Assembly (NCBI GenBank): GCA_904419495.1
Contig: CAJFRV010000017.1
Span: 1 to 47,494, forward strand
Length of the DNA: 47,494 nt
Reading direction: 5' to 3'
Source: an uncultured Clostridia bacterium
Lineage (GTDB): Bacteria; Bacillota; Clostridia; TANB77; CAG-508
The notes beneath the pieces were generated by a model. It did not search any database, was not told the DNA's origin, and was given only the letters and a program-made list of their open reading frames with translations. Of this stretch, positions 29,711 to 39,107 are shown piece by piece. A program made the translations under genes and the position numbers. Numbering within the stretch: position 1 is the stretch's first letter; every line of letters begins with the position of its first letter.

Positions 29711-30161
29711 TTAGTCAGTATTCAAAAAATTCATCACTAAATCAATTAATACTTCCTTCTCCTTTGGATTAGATTCAGCTATAAGCAAAGTTAAGGCGGT
29801 TAATGTATTATTATCAATTGTTTGTTTTCCATCTTTATATAAAATCCCGTAAAAGTTTAAAAAATATATAAATAATGTGGCTGCTATTCTTTTATTTCCA
29901 TCAGCAAAGACATGGTTTTTAACTGTTAAATATAAGAAATTTGCTGCTTTTTCTTCTATACTTTTATATATGTCTTGTCCTGCAAAGCTTTGATATATAT
30001 TTCCAATGATAGATTCTAGTCCTTTATCTCTTTCTACCGCAAATAATGTACTTTCTTCATTAAATCTAAGTTTATTTATAACATTAATACAATCACGATA
30101 TTGGATTCTTCTTTCATCTATATTTCCTTTGATTTTCTTAAGTGTTCTATGGTCATAATCA
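29711..30161 (-). pseudogene. Fic/DOC domain fragment, frameshifted off the upstream RhuM domain
   Basis: Read by eye in the -1/+1 frame: DYDHRTLKKIKGNIDERRIQYRDCINV...NHVFADGNKRIAATLFIYFLNFYGILY...LIDLVMNFLNTD*; intact HxFxDGNKR motif but no own start codon nearby. Confidence 0.8.
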
Positions 30162-30647
30162 ATCTAATGCTTTTGAATAGTCTCCAATAACTTTTAAAAT
30201 TTCTTTTGCATCACTGTTGTCTAATCTTTCTTCCATACGATTCGCTATATCAATTAATTTTATTGTTTTTTCTAGATATTCTAATCTTTTTTGATTTACG
30301 GCATATCCTTTTAACATGTAGTCTTTTAAAATTTTTGTTGCCCATTTTCTGAAAATCACACCATTTTTAGATTTTACCCTATACCCCACGGATATAATTA
30401 CATCTAAATTATATATTTTTGATTTTCTTCCTCCTGTACTTTTGTCGGAAATTCCGACAGAAGTTCTTTCTTCAAGTTCACCTTCTTTAAAAATATTACT
30501 AATATGTTCACTGATTGTTGCGTGTTTTACATCAAATAATTCCTCCATTTGTGCTTGTGTAAGCCACACTGTTTCATCTTTTAAGTTTACTTCTAATTTT
30601 ACTCCTTGGTTTTCGAATAAAATGATCTCATTTTTCTTTTCTTCCAT
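30159..30647 (-). CDS. RhuM-family (virulence RhuM-like) N-terminal domain
   Basis: VNLKDETVWLTQAQMEELFDVKHATISEHISNIFKEGEL...KIYNLDVIISVGYRVKSKNGVIFRKWATKILKDYMLKGYAVN. Confidence 0.88.
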   Translation of the reverse strand: MEEKKNEIILFENQGVKLEVNLKDETVWLTQAQMEELFDVKHATISEHISNIFKEGELEERTSVGISDKSTGGRKSKIYNLDVIISVGYRVKSKNGVIFRKWATKILKDYMLKGYAVNQKRLEYLEKTIKLIDIANRMEERLDNSDAKEILKVIGDYSKALD

Positions 30648-31438: not shown

Positions 31439-33622
31439 ATGCAAATGAAATATTTAAAATACTTTTTTAGAAAGATTAAAAAAATGGTAAAAGGCATTAT
31501 TGTAAATGCAAAACCTTTTCTATTTATTATACTAATTCTCTTTTTATCTATAGCATCTGAAGGCTATACATGGGAAGATTTTGGTCTTGATGGATTTAGC
31601 TTAAATCCCAATGATTACTGCAATTTAACAGATATTGACTACACCGCAGTTTTACATGATGATCCAAATGGAAATGCCAGTGTTGAAATTACAGAATATT
31701 TAACATTTGATGTGCATGCAGGCTCAAAATCTAATACCTATAAAGAATTATGGAGAGAACTTCCCGAAGAATATGTTGATGGATTAAAGGTAACTTATGA
31801 TGTCAAATCAGTTACACAAATTCTGGACAATGGTCAAGAAATACCTTATTCAGAAACTTCTAAAATGTATTGGGAAGATTCCGACTATACCCAAAGTTCA
31901 ACTATGCGTTGGCATCATAGTGATAGCTCAGGAAGTTATCCAGATAATGATGAGTCTTTGCTAATATACATTCCTTGGACATATCGAGAAAAAATGACTT
32001 TTAAAATTGTATATTCTATGAACAATGCAGCTTTAAAATATAATGATTGTTCTGAATTATATTTAGCTATGTATTCTGGAAATACGATTACAAAACTAAA
32101 TTCTTATAAAGCTCAAATTCTCATACCAGATGAAATAATGCCATCCACTTACTATGCATATACATTTGGAACGGCTAATAATCGATTGCCGCTTATCGAA
32201 TCAGATTATATAAATGATGGCTATCATACATTTTCAATTAATTTGGATAAGTCTGATTTAAAATTCAATTATCACAATCGTTATATAGAATTTTGTTTAT
32301 TGGCATATGGTGATGATAAACATATTTTTACAAAATATGCACCTAATAATAGATATTCAAATGAAAATGTTTTAGAGGAATGTATTGCAGAAAATGAATA
32401 TTATGAAACGCAAAATAGAAAATTTGATACATATAAAACACTATTATTGATAGCATCTATATTTGGTACGATTTTAATAGTGTATACTACAAAAAATAAG
32501 TATATGAAAACTAAGGAAAAATACAACTTATATACCCCAGAGGTAGACTATGATTATTTTAGAGAAATACCAAGTGACTTAGACCCTATTTTTGCTTCTG
32601 AGTTAGTATTTATGAAAGATCCTTTTGATGAAAATAAAGAAAAACAAGAAGAATATGCAGCAATTTTACTTAGTTTAGTAAGAAAGAAATATGTTAACAT
32701 TACGAAATTAGATAATAATCTTGACTGGGATAGTTCAAATACAGTCATTTCTATAGAACCTACTCGCACCAATTACGCAACACCAGCTTTTACGGATTCT
32801 CCAGATTATTCACCAGAACCTATTTATACAACAATAAATGAAAATACTGGTGATGTTTTAGAGCCACTTACTACTTCTGAAAGACTTTATTTAGAATTAT
32901 TGGAAAGACATTCTAGAACTTATCATAATTCAATTACAATTAATCAATTACAAAAATGTATTGATAATGATTATGTATATACAAATGCATTTGTGAAAGA
33001 TATAGAAAAGAAACCTATTTTAGAAAGTGGTGTCATGCAAGGATATTTCCAAAGTGCAGATTATGATGCACCTAAAAAAGAGCTCAATAAAAGTGCTAAG
33101 TCAAGCCTAATTTTAGGATTAATTTTATTAATTGTTATAAATCTAATTTCCTACTTTACACCTATGGCATTAGCCTTCGGGGCATATACGATTTTTGGAA
33201 TCGCTTGTTTGTGGAAATATTTTTATCTAACTTCAAAAGCAAGTAATTTAGTTTTATTTACACAATATGGAGCTAATGAACAAGCTAAATGGTATGGTTT
33301 ATACAATTTCTTAAATAGTGATACTTTGATGAATGAAAAAGAAGTTCATGAATTACCTTTATGGGAAAAATATTTGATTTACGCAACTGCTTTTGGTATT
33401 TCTGAAAAAGTGATAAAAGCGATAAAGATACATGCAGTAGAATTAAATATTGATAGCAGTCCTATATTAAACCATCATTTTTATATTCACTCAAGTAGCT
33501 TTCATAGGACCTCTAGAGCCTTTGGTCGCTCTATTCATACCTCCTCAAGAGGCGGTGGATTTGGTGGACATGGTTATGGTGGAGGCGGCCGTGGAGGCGG
33601 CGGTGGTGGCGGAGGCCATTAA
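31439..33622 (+). CDS. DUF2207-type predicted membrane protein with Gly-rich C-terminus
   Basis: DYTAVLHDDPNGNASVEITEYLTFDVHAGS...WRELPEEYVDGLKV; TM segments; tail SSRGGGFGGHGYGGGGRGGGGGGGGH. Confidence 0.82.
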   Translation: MQMKYLKYFFRKIKKMVKGIIVNAKPFLFIILILFLSIASEGYTWEDFGLDGFSLNPNDYCNLTDIDYTAVLHDDPNGNASVEITEYLTFDVHAGSKSNTYKELWRELPEEYVDGLKVTYDVKSVTQILDNGQEIPYSETSKMYWEDSDYTQSSTMRWHHSDSSGSYPDNDESLLIYIPWTYREKMTFKIVYSMNNAALKYNDCSELYLAMYSGNTITKLNSYKAQILIPDEIMPSTYYAYTFGTANNRLPLIESDYINDGYHTFSINLDKSDLKFNYHNRYIEFCLLAYGDDKHIFTKYAPNNRYSNENVLEECIAENEYYETQNRKFDTYKTLLLIASIFGTILIVYTTKNKYMKTKEKYNLYTPEVDYDYFREIPSDLDPIFASELVFMKDPFDENKEKQEEYAAILLSLVRKKYVNITKLDNNLDWDSSNTVISIEPTRTNYATPAFTDSPDYSPEPIYTTINENTGDVLEPLTTSERLYLELLERHSRTYHNSITINQLQKCIDNDYVYTNAFVKDIEKKPILESGVMQGYFQSADYDAPKKELNKSAKSSLILGLILLIVINLISYFTPMALAFGAYTIFGIACLWKYFYLTSKASNLVLFTQYGANEQAKWYGLYNFLNSDTLMNEKEVHELPLWEKYLIYATAFGISEKVIKAIKIHAVELNIDSSPILNHHFYIHSSSFHRTSRAFGRSIHTSSRGGGFGGHGYGGGGRGGGGGGGGH

Positions 33623-33650
33623 TACTACCTAAAAGATATCCTATAAAAGA

Positions 33651-33680
33651 AAAGAAAGAGTGTTAAAATACTCTTTCTTT
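33651..33680. terminator. Bidirectional terminator between DUF2207 and homospermidine-synthase-like genes
   Basis: AAAGAAAGAGT-GTTAAAAT-ACTCTTTCTTT with T tail. Confidence 0.75.
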
Positions 33681-33705
33681 TTATTTAAAATTTAAATTCT
33701 TGCTA

Positions 33706-35169
33706 CTATTGATTCTTCAATATGTCTTTTAATTGTAAACAATTTAATTGAATATCAAGACTATGTTCTATTTTTTCTCTAGGAATGGTTTTGTAAATTG
33801 TTTTTGAAATATATTTTTCTGCAAAATGAATGATTTCTCTATATTCCTTAATGTCATCAGGAAAATATATTCCTCCTTTATCTTTATTTTTTATCATCCA
33901 GCAAACAGCTGCTAACGCTGACATGGCAACAGGTGTTATTGTTGGTGTTTGCCAGAAGGATGATTTTTTGTCCTTATATAAAAAATGTTTCTTAATTCTA
34001 TTTCCTACCCATACTGGCTCAAATTTATCTCCTAATAATAGTATTCCTACATATTCTGTGCCTCGTTTTATATTTTCTTTGTAAGGAATTTCTGCTCTTT
34101 TAGGGTATTTAAATCCTCGTATAATTGAAATATCATCATCTTGTGGCTTATGGATATCTGGATGAAGATAATCATTTACTTTCGCTTTTTTCAAGTATTT
34201 TACTGCAAATTCACAAGGAGAGTATAAAAATATAACTGTTGGTCTATATACGACCTCCTCCCCTTTTTTTACTTCAAGAGATTTTGCTATCGTTATTGTC
34301 TCTTCGTGAGGAACTAAAAATCCTTCAAATTCTCCTTTTGGATAATATGTTTTTCCTACTTTATCAATTGCTATATCTTTAAATTCTAAAAAACCATTTT
34401 TTAAATCTAGCTTTTTACATTCTTTTTCATAATCGATTTTCTCACTCGTACCAATATTAGCAGTTGCTTCACTTAACATTTCGAAGAAAAATGAATCCAC
34501 TGACCATGTACTATATAGTTTGTTTTCATCAAATTTTTCTTTGATTTCTTGATAATCATTATCATTTACGTGAACTTCTTTTAAATCAAGAGCCTTCGCA
34601 AGTTCATTGAATTTATTTTCCTTTAAAAGTTTATGATATTCTTCATTATTCTTAAATTGCTTTTTTACAATGTATTCTAGCCCTGCTTTTACAAAATGAG
34701 AAACCAACCCAGGATTATTTCCATGTTGCAACACGATAGGATATTTATTCACATTGCTTTTTTGCTTTAATTGATTTCGTGATTCATTTTTTTTCAAGTT
34801 TTCTTCAAAAATATTATACCAATTATCGCTCCAATCTGTCTCTCCTGTGTTTAGATACATGATATTTTTATTTGCACACCATTCTATGAAATCTTTTGTA
34901 CCAACACTATCAGCAAAATCAATTAATAAATCGCCCTCTTCTAAATATTTTGAAAATATGCTTTTGAAATTTTCTCTATTAATATCCGCTACAAGGAAGT
35001 TCCCCATCTTCCCTCCAAGTTCGAGAAAAAAAGTATATTCAAGCTTATCCCTAGATATTACGAAATATTTGTCTTTATCATATTTTATTTCTTTAGAAAT
35101 TTTCTCGAAAAAACTTTTTCCTACTGCACCAAAGCCAAATTGTACTATTTTATTTTTAAATTCAATCAT
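33706..35169 (-). CDS. Homospermidine synthase-like / saccharopine-dehydrogenase-fold enzyme
   Basis: IVQFGFGAVGKSFF Rossmann motif, DLLIDFADSVGTKDFIEWC, YLNTGETDW, VLQHGNNPGLVSHFVKAGLEYI, FLYSPCEFAVKYLK. Confidence 0.85.
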   Translation of the reverse strand: MIEFKNKIVQFGFGAVGKSFFEKISKEIKYDKDKYFVISRDKLEYTFFLELGGKMGNFLVADINRENFKSIFSKYLEEGDLLIDFADSVGTKDFIEWCANKNIMYLNTGETDWSDNWYNIFEENLKKNESRNQLKQKSNVNKYPIVLQHGNNPGLVSHFVKAGLEYIVKKQFKNNEEYHKLLKENKFNELAKALDLKEVHVNDNDYQEIKEKFDENKLYSTWSVDSFFFEMLSEATANIGTSEKIDYEKECKKLDLKNGFLEFKDIAIDKVGKTYYPKGEFEGFLVPHEETITIAKSLEVKKGEEVVYRPTVIFLYSPCEFAVKYLKKAKVNDYLHPDIHKPQDDDISIIRGFKYPKRAEIPYKENIKRGTEYVGILLLGDKFEPVWVGNRIKKHFLYKDKKSSFWQTPTITPVAMSALAAVCWMIKNKDKGGIYFPDDIKEYREIIHFAEKYISKTIYKTIPREKIEHSLDIQLNCLQLKDILKNQ

Positions 35170-35173
35170 TGTT

Positions 35174-35836
35174 CTATATTTCTTCTTTCTCTAATCGTTC
35201 TTTTATTGTTTTTGTTAATATGACTTTTTTTGGAAATACATATCCATCTGTTATATAAATCTCCATTCCTTTTTCTTGAAATTTTAAGAAAATTTTTTTC
35301 AAGTCTGGTTGAATTTTATCTCCTACCACTATGATTTTCACTATACCATTTTTCTTAAAATATTCAGATGTTGGAATATCATGTTTGTATAAATCCCAAC
35401 TATTATCAAAAATAGATTCCTTTGCTCTATATCTATTTGTTCTATAGCTATCAATCAAAAAAGCTGGGTTTGCATCATTTTTTAGTTGTATATTTTTTAA
35501 TTTTTCACTTCCATTTATTAAGCAACTTTCAATTAAATACGTATTTGTCGTTGCTTGTGCGTCTTGTTGTTCATCCGTCCCATTAAAAACTGGTATGGGT
35601 CTATAACCTAGATGTGCTAAATCGATTCCCAATTCTATACTTTCTTTACCCGGTAAATCAATAAATATCGCTGTATCTTGTTGATATTTTTTTAAAAACA
35701 TTGCTTTTCTATCTAGCCAATCACCAATAGGTTGTCTATGATAAGTATCAATTGCAACAAATGGTACTGGTCTCACCCATTGTGTCCATTTCGCACCTTC
35801 AGGTGCATATATTTTATATATTTCTTTTCCTCTCAT
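35174..35836 (-). CDS. Hypothetical protein, 220 aa, in the polyamine-like operon
   Basis: ORF with 4-11 nt gaps to its neighbours; YAPEGAKWTQWVRPVPFVAIDTYHRQPIGDW; no family recognised. Confidence 0.75.
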   Translation of the reverse strand: MRGKEIYKIYAPEGAKWTQWVRPVPFVAIDTYHRQPIGDWLDRKAMFLKKYQQDTAIFIDLPGKESIELGIDLAHLGYRPIPVFNGTDEQQDAQATTNTYLIESCLINGSEKLKNIQLKNDANPAFLIDSYRTNRYRAKESIFDNSWDLYKHDIPTSEYFKKNGIVKIIVVGDKIQPDLKKIFLKFQEKGMEIYITDGYVFPKKVILTKTIKERLEKEEI

Positions 35837-35847
35837 TTTCTTACCCT

Positions 35848-37053
35848 CTATTTTTCAATTAATACTGGAATATCTTCTGCATAAGAATCAATTCTTGGAT
35901 ATGGACTCATTCGTGCATAATATCCAGCATGCTCTCCTTCTATTGTATATGAGCCAAGACAAATATGGTATTCTTTTCCATCTTCACTTTTTAATGGTTT
36001 ACTTTGGAAGTTTTTCTGTGCCAAGTATTGCTTTGGATGCTTTTTTACATCTTGTAAAATTCTTTCATATTCATCTTCTTTACACGCTTCTTTAATTGAA
36101 ATCCTCTCTCCTACTCTACCATAAACTGGTTTATATATAAACCCTTCTTTTTTTCCTACATCCTTTACTTCTACTGTTTCTGGTAATAATGTTTTCCACG
36201 TTTTCATACAAATACCAGCTTTTTCCAGCTCTTCCCAAACAAACGGAAATCTTTTGCTTTGAGCATATATGCTAATAGGATGGTTGCAAGATTTCGTTAT
36301 GGTGTTAAAGTATCCATCCCATCTGCGTGGTTTCATTTGGATAAGCCATTCCAATGGAGTAAATCTAAAAATTAAATCTATACTTTCTTGATTATTATCT
36401 AAAATACAATAAGCTTTTTTATCTTTAAAATTAATATGATCTGCTGCTCCATAAATAATCTTGTAACCTTCCTTTTCAAGTCTATCTCCTAAGTATTGCA
36501 TAACTTGCCTATCATCACTAAAGCAAGTACAATGTACCATCATAATCGTTCCTTTTTTGTTTAATTTGTTGTTTATTGTATCCACCATTTTTTCACCAAA
36601 TGAATGATATTCTAATTCAGGCATATTTATCATTTTACGTGCTATATCTGGTAATAGTGAACTTTCTGCAAAACCTCCTGGACAATCACTATTTACTTCA
36701 GTTACAACCCAATGATTGTCTGTGCTTGGATGAAAATCATATCTCATAAGTCTAATATTTTGAGTTTTATCATAAGTTTGCATATTTGGTATTTGCTTTA
36801 AAATTTGTTTAGGAAGTGCTAATTTTTTTGCAAGTTTACGATTTTGATTTAAATATTCTTCTGCTAATCTAGTTTCTTTATCTAAGCTTTTGGTAAGCTT
36901 AATGATTTCTTCATTTTCTTTTTGCGTTAATATCAATATATGTTTTGATAAAGTGTTACTATCACAAAACTGTGGATCCCATTTATAGCAGTCAAACATG
37001 GCTTGAATTTTATATTCATAATATCTATCTTCGGGAATCTTGATTAATTTCAT
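35848..37053 (-). CDS. Glutathionylspermidine synthase-like ATP-grasp protein
   Basis: RYDFHPSTDNHWVVTEVNSDCPGGFAESSLLP, DLIFRFTPLEWLIQ, GFIYKPVYGRVGERISI resemble GSP_synth-type ATP-grasp signatures. Confidence 0.8.
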   Translation of the reverse strand: MKLIKIPEDRYYEYKIQAMFDCYKWDPQFCDSNTLSKHILILTQKENEEIIKLTKSLDKETRLAEEYLNQNRKLAKKLALPKQILKQIPNMQTYDKTQNIRLMRYDFHPSTDNHWVVTEVNSDCPGGFAESSLLPDIARKMINMPELEYHSFGEKMVDTINNKLNKKGTIMMVHCTCFSDDRQVMQYLGDRLEKEGYKIIYGAADHINFKDKKAYCILDNNQESIDLIFRFTPLEWLIQMKPRRWDGYFNTITKSCNHPISIYAQSKRFPFVWEELEKAGICMKTWKTLLPETVEVKDVGKKEGFIYKPVYGRVGERISIKEACKEDEYERILQDVKKHPKQYLAQKNFQSKPLKSEDGKEYHICLGSYTIEGEHAGYYARMSPYPRIDSYAEDIPVLIEK

Positions 37054-37089
37054 AACCTCTCTCTTTTCTCTACAAATTACAATTTTTCA

Positions 37090-37602
37090 TTATATTCCAA
37101 ATTCCTTTGCATATTGGACAACACCTGTTATTTCTATGTCTGTGTCATTCAATTTCATAGCCATAAAATTTTCATTAGCCACATCAAAAGGTGCTTGTAT
37201 TCCATATTGTGTTGCTGGAATGTATCCAAACTTTGGATAATAGTTCTCACTTCCTAAGACAATAGAATAATGATATCCTAATTTTTTAGCTATCTTATGT
37301 CCTTGCTCAATTAGCATACTACCAATTCCTTGTTTTTGGTATTCTGGTAATACAGCAAGTGGTGCTAAAGCTATTTCTTCATAATTTTCTATTTTTATTT
37401 TTGTAAATAAAATATATCCTACAATTTTATCATCTTTAACAGCTACTAATGATAATTCTGGAATAAAACTATCACTATTCCTTAAAGCCACTACCAAATC
37501 CTGTTCATTTCCATCACTATGTTCTGCCATTTCAAACGCTGTTTTGACAACCATATATACTTCTTCATAATCTTTTTGATTTTCTTGTCTTATTTCTATC
37601 AT
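37090..37602 (-). CDS. GNAT family N-acetyltransferase (YhbS-like)
   Basis: IALAPLAVLPEYQKQGIGSMLIEQGHKIAKKLGYHYSIVLGSENYYPKFGYIPATQYGI. Confidence 0.92.
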   Translation of the reverse strand: MIEIRQENQKDYEEVYMVVKTAFEMAEHSDGNEQDLVVALRNSDSFIPELSLVAVKDDKIVGYILFTKIKIENYEEIALAPLAVLPEYQKQGIGSMLIEQGHKIAKKLGYHYSIVLGSENYYPKFGYIPATQYGIQAPFDVANENFMAMKLNDTDIEITGVVQYAKEFGI

Positions 37603-37724: not shown

Positions 37725-39107
37725 TTATGGTGCTTTACATAACTTTCTTTTTATAAAAATAATCACATAACTAATTATCGCTAAAATCACAACAATTCCT
37801 ATTTGCTCAACTACCAATGGTGATAATTTTAATAAATTTCTAAATAGATATGTTGCCACATAGAATCCAACAGCTGTTGTACTAAATAAAAATGCATGAA
37901 CTTTATTAAATGGCATACAAACCTCTTGAACGGCTAATATACTTACAAATCCAATTAGTAGGTACATCATAGTAGTTAATGTATTTTGCTCTATTCCCAT
38001 ACCATTTCCTAAAACTGTTAAAACTATTATATTTAACATAATTACAATGGCAAATGGAAGTGCATTTGTTAAGGCTGTCTTCAAAAATGTTCCTTTAATT
38101 GGTTTTTCATTTCTTTCAAAAGATATAAAGAAAGAGGTATATGCTTCAATTACTAAGTCTATTAATGTAATTTGTATTGGTATAAATGGAAATTCCATAT
38201 TGGTTAATATACAAAATACAGATAATAAAATAGAATATATAGTTTTAATAAAAAATATTCTTGCAACACTTGTAATGTTATTAACCACTCTTCTTCCTTC
38301 CATTAGTACATCTTTTAAGACACTAAAATTAATAAGACTAACCCTTTTGGTAACATTCCGAAGTAATGCTGCTGCTGTTGCAATGACTGATTGTGTGATA
38401 TCTGTTTGTCTTGTAATATATGCTTGTATAAATAGAATAATTCCAAATGGAATAATGACAAAACTTGTAAATCTTGTTACCTTTTTCATAGAATTAATTA
38501 ATTCTGAATTGTTAGATTTTTGTTTTTTTGCTGAACTAATAATTCTATTGGCAAAATTATTCTCTCCTACTTTTTCTATTTTGGCATAACATTTTCCACT
38601 AACCACATAACTTCCTGAAAGCAATGTGTCTTTTTCACTTTTTAAGATTAAATCTGATTCTCCTGTAAGTAAGGATTCATTAACTTCTATTTCTCCACTG
38701 ATAATTTGTGCATCTGATGGAATTTGATCTCCTTGTGCTAAAACAATTGTATCTCCTAATACGATTTCTTCTACATCTATTTTTTTCTCTTTTCCATTTC
38801 TTATGACAGTTGCTTTTGCTGTATTTAGAATCGACAATTTTTTCACTAAATTTTTTCCATGGATTTCTTGTATAATACCAATGAAAACATTTACTGCGAT
38901 AATTGCAAAAAAGAATACATTTGTATATGCTTTTACTGAAATTAATGCAATCGCAATTATCAAATTATATAAATTAAATAATGTAAATACATTGTCAGCA
39001 ATAATCTTCCAATTTGATTTTAAATTGTCTTTTGGAAGTGTATTCACATTTCCTTTTTGTATTTGTTCTTCTACTTCTTTGTTTGATAATCCGTGTATTT
39101 TGTCCAT
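37725..39107 (-). CDS. P-type cation ATPase-derived membrane protein lacking the catalytic P/N domains
   Basis: N-terminal HGLSNKEVEEQIQKGNVN, actuator VEVNESLLTGESDLILKS, C-terminal VLMEGRRVVNNITSVARIFFIKTIYSILL and TM bundle present; no DKTGT, no TGDGVND. Confidence 0.85.
   Translation of the reverse strand: MDKIHGLSNKEVEEQIQKGNVNTLPKDNLKSNWKIIADNVFTLFNLYNLIIAIALISVKAYTNVFFFAIIAVNVFIGIIQEIHGKNLVKKLSILNTAKATVIRNGKEKKIDVEEIVLGDTIVLAQGDQIPSDAQIISGEIEVNESLLTGESDLILKSEKDTLLSGSYVVSGKCYAKIEKVGENNFANRIISSAKKQKSNNSELINSMKKVTRFTSFVIIPFGIILFIQAYITRQTDITQSVIATAAALLRNVTKRVSLINFSVLKDVLMEGRRVVNNITSVARIFFIKTIYSILLSVFCILTNMEFPFIPIQITLIDLVIEAYTSFFISFERNEKPIKGTFLKTALTNALPFAIVIMLNIIVLTVLGNGMGIEQNTLTTMMYLLIGFVSILAVQEVCMPFNKVHAFLFSTTAVGFYVATYLFRNLLKLSPLVVEQIGIVVILAIISYVIIFIKRKLCKAP

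Follow-up and report, generated by a model that had tools for sequence, protein, structure and literature searches.

The window examined here is a 47,494-nucleotide stretch of DNA on contig C17 of a draft genome (1.7 Mb, 91% complete) of an uncultured Clostridia bacterium, the closest public relatives of which are metagenome-assembled genomes of uncultured Clostridia, the nearest of them carrying 'chicken' in its name. Within it we studied a compact group of three genes on the reverse strand, the trio, which encode an ATP-grasp ligase, a 220-residue protein (U220) and a protein resembling homospermidine synthase (HSS). A first-pass annotation of the sequence had placed three same-strand genes here, and the positions of the open reading frames (ORFs) confirmed this arrangement, with gaps of 11 nt between the ATP-grasp and U220 genes and 4 nt between the U220 and HSS-like genes:

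35848..37053, reverse strand: YgiC/glutathionylspermidine (GSP)-synthase-like ATP-grasp ligase, core gene (401 aa; Pfam GSP_synth, PF03738, E = 1.7e-23)
35174..35836, reverse strand: U220, a 220-aa predicted alpha/beta partner protein, core gene, next to the ATP-grasp gene and without a family match
33706..35169, reverse strand: HSS-like NAD-dependent enzyme, optional partner (487 aa; Pfam Sacchrp_dh_NADP, E = 5.9e-12; phmmer match to 2ph5, E = 5.2e-37)

Homologues of U220 were gathered from two sources, GTDB contigs and the whole genomes of the window's own family. The order and strand of the trio were kept in 27 of 28 distinct related Clostridia contigs, at U220 identities as low as 46–50%, and the ATP-grasp gene lay immediately 5′ of the U220 gene in all 28; the single contig without HSS was L029. 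Among the 27, the U220 gene is interrupted in one (L031), and two contigs end within the HSS gene. Adjacent genes of the trio are −11 to 85 nt apart (71 nt in L017), except for one gap of 187 nt in L031, with its interrupted U220 gene. The neighbourhood proposed from this one sequence is thus kept in its relatives, and its conservation is far beyond chance. The pairwise-distance matrices of the three proteins also correlate (r = 0.98), which fits one inherited unit, although the rows are closely related and the correlation is weak evidence alone.

The three genes are not equally constant. A U220 profile matched in 13 of 292 genomes of the class and in one of 399 genomes drawn across the phylum, that one being the window's own; within the family its distribution was patchy (16 of 146 whole genomes). 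A GSP_synth ATP-grasp gene was present in all 13 U220-bearing genomes of the class, and adjacent wherever the locus was read, while HSS was found in five of the 292 genomes, all five of them among these 13 (a sixth match, with E = 6.5e-4 over 70 residues, was left out of the count). The invariant core is therefore the ATP-grasp/U220 pair, and the HSS-like gene is an optional third partner. The first-pass annotation had cast U220 as the third component of a polyamine pair; the linkage held, but of the two partners it was U220 that proved constant, with HSS being optional. In distant clusters, where U220 is 28–37% identical, a DUF350 gene precedes the ATP-grasp gene, and a direct search found DUF350 in all seven genomes with distant U220 clusters but in none of 17 genomes of the HSS-type clade, the window's genome included. 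On this distribution HSS and DUF350 look like exchangeable, alternative partners of the ATP-grasp/U220 pair. Other GSP_synth matches in the class are ~440 aa long, with different neighbours and without U220.

A remote U220-like gene was seen in two genomes of another Clostridia family (L105:4153-8087, L120:4757-8556), the similarity of its product being supported by hhalign (probability 95.5%, E = 1.5e-8, against 0.13 and 0.48 for negative controls). There, a small gene, the remote U220-like gene and a gene for a Ser/Gly-rich lipoprotein-like protein stand in that order, with the gene for a tandem GSP_synth ATP-grasp protein (826–861 aa) alongside.

The ATP-grasp ligase and its partner U220

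When the ATP-grasp profile was compared with the PDB, the best match was YgiC (7uk8, E = 9.6e-7), ahead of GspS (2io7, E = 0.0016). The motifs R-x-D, E-x-N, DR and KP-x-x-R are common to the ligase and YgiC/YjfC, and its residues R104, D106, E119, N121, K308 and R313 recur in YgiC, YjfC and the enzyme of Achromobacter phage Motura, so that sequence family and motifs alike place it with YgiC/YjfC. Five of these residues (R104, D106, E119, N121 and K308) are invariant in 20 of 20 homologues and correspond to R328, D330, E344, N346 and K548 of trypanothione synthetase (TryS), whose part there is to bind Mg, ATP and the acyl group (PMC3581523); the counterpart of TryS K513, a lysine (K267), falls one column off, and its assignment is uncertain. 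The residues for Mg, ATP and the acyl phosphate on which the earlier assignment as a ligase depended are thus present, as are the catalytic residues of glutathionylspermidine synthetase (EC 6.3.1.8). The serine of glutathione binding is not: TryS S351, which hydrogen-bonds the glycyl carboxylate of glutathione (PMC3581523), is replaced by an invariant glycine (G126) in all 20 homologues, and by Thr in YgiC and YjfC.

YgiC and YjfC are peptide-spermidine ligases according to Pederick et al. (2023), as cited in a passage of PMC12568646, and bear that product name in RefSeq; a passage of PMC12506659 cites Sui (2012) for E. coli YgiC being without GSP-forming (Gsp) activity. Because the ligase is closest to YgiC, keeps the catalytic residues and has glycine in place of the glutathione serine, its mode of action is most likely that of YgiC, with some acid other than glutathione as the substrate.

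U220 went unrecognised in the first-pass annotation, and profile searches of Pfam, NCBIfam, PHROGs and PADLOC likewise gave no family. Two AlphaFold models (pLDDT 82 and 80) predict an alpha/beta, Rossmann-like core. Foldseek comparison with the PDB and viral structures returned no match at E ≤ 0.001, the best (E = 0.002, TM ~0.3) being weak DOT1- and isochorismatase-like matches, and because nothing better was found we name the fold only 'Rossmann-like alpha/beta'. An isochorismatase-type hydrolase was dropped as a candidate, there being no conserved Cys or Lys at the matching places; a phage or plasmid origin was rejected since no match was found in phages, plasmids or IMG/VR, and a known anti-phage defence system since PADLOC models matched none of five proteins. 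U220 itself as acceptor in the HSS clade was also rejected, its C-terminus not being conserved. Given its strict linkage to the ATP-grasp gene, the simplest reading is that U220 is a ligase subunit or a substrate-presenting protein.

The HSS-like enzyme and the supply of polyamine

All PDB matches of the HSS-like protein are homospermidine synthases (2ph5 being the best, at 5e-37), which upholds its first-pass assignment over any other enzyme of the saccharopine dehydrogenase family. It shares with the B. viridis enzyme (BvHSS; 4PLP) the fold family and, at ~25% identity, N162, W229, E237, H296 and E298, which correspond to N152, W222, E230, H288 and E290, invariant in the HSS-like clade; mutation of N162, E237, H296 or E298 inactivates BvHSS (PMC4725965), and the catalytic residues are thus in place. 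In contrast, BvHSS E210, Y323 and D361, described as highly conserved in the HSS family, are replaced by D203, F314 and E372 in 15 of 15 HSS-like members, and the position of E117 is not Glu. E210 holds the inner amine of putrescine; its change here therefore means that the preferred amine of the HSS-like enzyme may differ. Phe also takes the place of Y323 in an HSS homologue encoded on an Alteromonas mediterranea plasmid (L102:1-7302), between a cyclic-peptide exporter and a nonribosomal peptide synthetase (NRPS) gene, a locus that suggests the use of HSS in a peptide natural product.

No OKR decarboxylase (PF01276) was found in the window's genome, nor any match over the cut-off in 32 related genomes. 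An ornithine decarboxylase (ODC)-fold decarboxylase (PF02784) gave no match in the window's genome, a 91%-complete draft in which pyruvoyl arginine decarboxylase (ADC) was not searched for, and no PotA exceeded the cut-off in 10 genomes, the window's included, other importers not having been searched for. A spermidine-synthase-domain match in the window's genome (contig C6, beside topA) is a 488-aa protein, rejected as a canonical SpeE on account of its apparently membrane-spanning N-terminal half. Because the inner-amine pocket is altered and neither a usual putrescine decarboxylase nor a PotA over the cut-off was seen, synthesis of homospermidine from putrescine by the HSS-like enzyme appears doubtful; with a draft genome and other importers unsearched, the homospermidine reading is weakened rather than refuted.

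Genes and features around the trio

Three further features flank the trio:

31439..33622, forward strand: DUF2207 membrane protein, convergent neighbour, with a Gly-rich C-terminus containing His, Arg and Tyr (PF20990, E = 5.2e-29)
33650..33681, reverse strand: terminator-like hairpin 3′ of the HSS-like gene, statistically weak
37090..37602, reverse strand: GNAT acetyltransferase, upstream, judged to be outside the unit (Pfam GNAT, E = 4.3e-13)

The DUF2207 gene, which lies beyond the coordinates first considered, belongs to the neighbourhood, facing the trio in nearly all relatives whose contigs extend there, including two without HSS (L049 and L052). Paralogues of DUF2207 occur in every genome tested; homologues that match the greater part of the window's protein, at 42–98% identity, were seen only next to the trio or its counterparts. 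The cluster-linked tail, GYGGGGRGGGGG, has several His and Arg residues, as against the GGGFSGGGG tail of paralogues elsewhere. In many assemblies the Gly-repeat tails of DUF2207 genes, cluster-linked or not, often enter a shifted frame with RRWWWRWRWP-like ends (L009, L011, L013, L052, L054, L056, L125-L137 and others), either through errors of assembly or through true slippage at the repeat. In one relative a LemA-family gene (L050:7978-8565) stands on the side of the trio opposite DUF2207. No conserved transporter, tailoring or regulatory gene was seen alongside the trio in the neighbourhoods of its relatives.

The GNAT gene, 36 nt upstream of the ATP-grasp gene, had been noted in front of the operon; it precedes the ATP-grasp gene only in near-identical relatives (L002-L004 and L018) and is absent from L005-L017, and we ruled it out as a fourth component. 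The hairpin at 33681-33650 does have the T tail of a terminator, following a 12-bp stem, but the earlier description of it as strong was overstated: the stem has just three G–C pairs, and a terminator scan found two such sites compared with 1.4 in shuffles. Farther upstream, a P-type ATPase gene (37725-39107, reverse strand) is short of ~300 aa, the DKTGT phosphorylation motif included, and looks to be decaying; in relatives L002-L004 the first ORF ends at 269 aa, and L002 holds the missing stretch in another frame. On the other side, a short ORF (30159-30647, reverse strand) with a partial RhuM profile match (15-69 of 252) is probably a remnant.

A candidate polyamine ligase module

Since the neighbourhood is conserved, the ATP-grasp residues are kept and the third gene is homologous to HSS, polyamine conjugation is the best reading of the locus. 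For this cluster of gut Clostridia we favour, with moderate confidence, an acid/peptide–polyamine ligase module that would work like E. coli YgiC/YjfC, with U220 as its obligate partner. The ATP-grasp enzyme would turn a carboxylate, probably a peptide or protein C-terminus or a peptide-like acid rather than glutathione, into an acyl phosphate, and then couple it to the amine of a polyamine; U220 would most likely bind the ligase, or present its substrate to it, in the role of a subunit or scaffold; and the HSS-like enzyme, where present, would use NAD-dependent aminoalkyl transfer to make or remodel the polyamine. As the remaining constant neighbours, DUF2207 here and DUF350 in other families, are membrane proteins, a role of the product in the cell envelope is probable. 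The first-pass proposal that the pair makes and conjugates a homospermidine-like polyamine is accordingly retained for conjugation and questioned, on the grounds given above, for homospermidine made from putrescine. Several observations weigh against the module that we favour, namely the pocket changes in every HSS-like member, the lack of matches to the two decarboxylase families and to PotA in the genomes searched, the finding of no U220 relative of known function, and the position of the conserved NGT and R-x-x-R...FDNSWD segments of U220 in lower-confidence loops of the models.

The E. coli YgiBC and YjfLMC systems resemble the trio in their ATP-grasp enzyme, which belongs to one family with that of the trio and shares its catalytic residues, at ~20% identity. 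DUF350 and DUF1190 genes flank YjfC in E. coli, yjfL (DUF350) standing beside yjfM-yjfC, and the distant U220 clusters likewise carry DUF350, whereas no DUF350 gene was found in the window's genome and no DUF1190 protein in the trio, a genome-wide DUF1190 search not having been made. The trio differs from the E. coli systems in the addition of HSS and in its unrelated partner U220, for which E. coli showed no counterpart. Operons of ATP-grasp, DUF350 and polyamine-metabolism genes are described in parts of PMC11237479, and are like the trio in having a GSP-synthetase-related ligase, accompanied there, near the membrane, by DUF350 and polyamine genes; they contain AdoMet decarboxylase, polyamine oxidase, DUF2491 and PspA, and HSS, U220 and DUF2207 do not appear in those parts of the paper.

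A small secreted natural product, for which the ATP-grasp enzyme would make a polyamine amide as in E-64 biosynthesis with HSS providing the amine, seems unlikely. Fungal ATP-grasps structurally close to YgiC/YjfC do build E-64 type polyamine amides (PMC12568646), and on Alteromonas plasmids an HSS homologue neighbours genes for NRPS and cyclic-peptide export, but the genes conserved with the trio include none for transport, tailoring or regulation, the stable neighbours being DUF2207 or DUF350 membrane proteins.

We give slightly less credence to a route in which HSS makes homospermidine from putrescine and the ATP-grasp enzyme makes glutathionylhomospermidine, the product suggested for the hss-gss clusters of beta-Proteobacteria and phage Motura (PMC9992855). 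In Motura, as in the trio, an HSS homologue and a GSP-synthase-like ATP-grasp are neighbours with a small protein between them; because the order is hss, a DUF1190-like gene (E = 5e-4, bit score 20.9 against a cut-off of 22) and gss, the combination of HSS with a YgiB/YgiC-like pair has a precedent. The middle protein, however, is a DUF1190-like lipoprotein of the family of YgiB/YjfM, and a relationship to U220 was rejected on comparison; the HSS and ligase are ~21% and ~19% identical to those of the trio, and the HSS pocket differs. The published clustering, the clear HSS homology and the retention of the four residues proven essential by mutation in the B. viridis enzyme argue for this route, whereas the invariant G126 at the position of TryS S351, the D203, F314 and E372 replacements, the lack of a usual putrescine-making gene or of PotA over the cut-off in the genome, and the reported inactivity of the closer relative YgiC in Gsp formation (Sui, cited above) argue against it. 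The same publication qualifies the first-pass statement that no described pathway has exactly this trio, in that the hss-gss pairing is already in print, although the U220 partner is undescribed. Within the literature searched, U220 as a family seems to be new, as do the way in which HSS and DUF350 replace each other around it, the DUF2207 subfamily linked to the cluster and the residue shifts in the two enzymes.

To a similar degree we doubt that the ligase adds polyamine to a protein C-terminus, the acceptor being the Gly-rich tail of DUF2207 in this cluster or, in DUF350 clusters, that of the longer U220 homologue. In its favour, YgiC ligates peptides, and a C-terminal RGG[FY]G...GG tail is common to YgiB (RGGFG..SMGG), YjfM (RGGYG..HWGG) and the Motura protein (RGGFG..SAGG) (L113:245-913, L114:7388-8023, L100:5288-5668); the distant U220 tail reads GGFGG..YYGFG and the DUF2207 tail RGGGFGGHGYGGGG, and cluster-linked DUF2207 tails differ from those of the paralogues. 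Yet Gly-rich tails are common across DUF2207 generally, the short U220 of the HSS clade has none, many linked DUF2207 tails end without Gly or enter another frame in assemblies, and all three E. coli and phage tails come from one family. Less likely still is a dedicated tagging system, in which a U220–ligase complex would put a homospermidine-like polyamine, made by HSS for that use, on an envelope protein with a Gly-rich tail. The tail would be that of DUF2207 here and, in related systems, that of DUF1190 lipoproteins or of the long U220; such tagging is conceivable because the partners tend to end Gly-rich and the ligases act on peptides, but that polyamine could be added to a partner's tail is speculation, on thin evidence.

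The YgiC/YjfC-like module that we favour bears on a wider group of enzymes, since ligases of this type are widespread. The cluster provides a strictly linked partner family, U220, in Clostridia, where HSS accompanies the ligase pair in one lineage and DUF350 does so in another. It also suggests a role in conjugate synthesis for the HSS-family enzymes of bacteria without recognisable putrescine synthesis.

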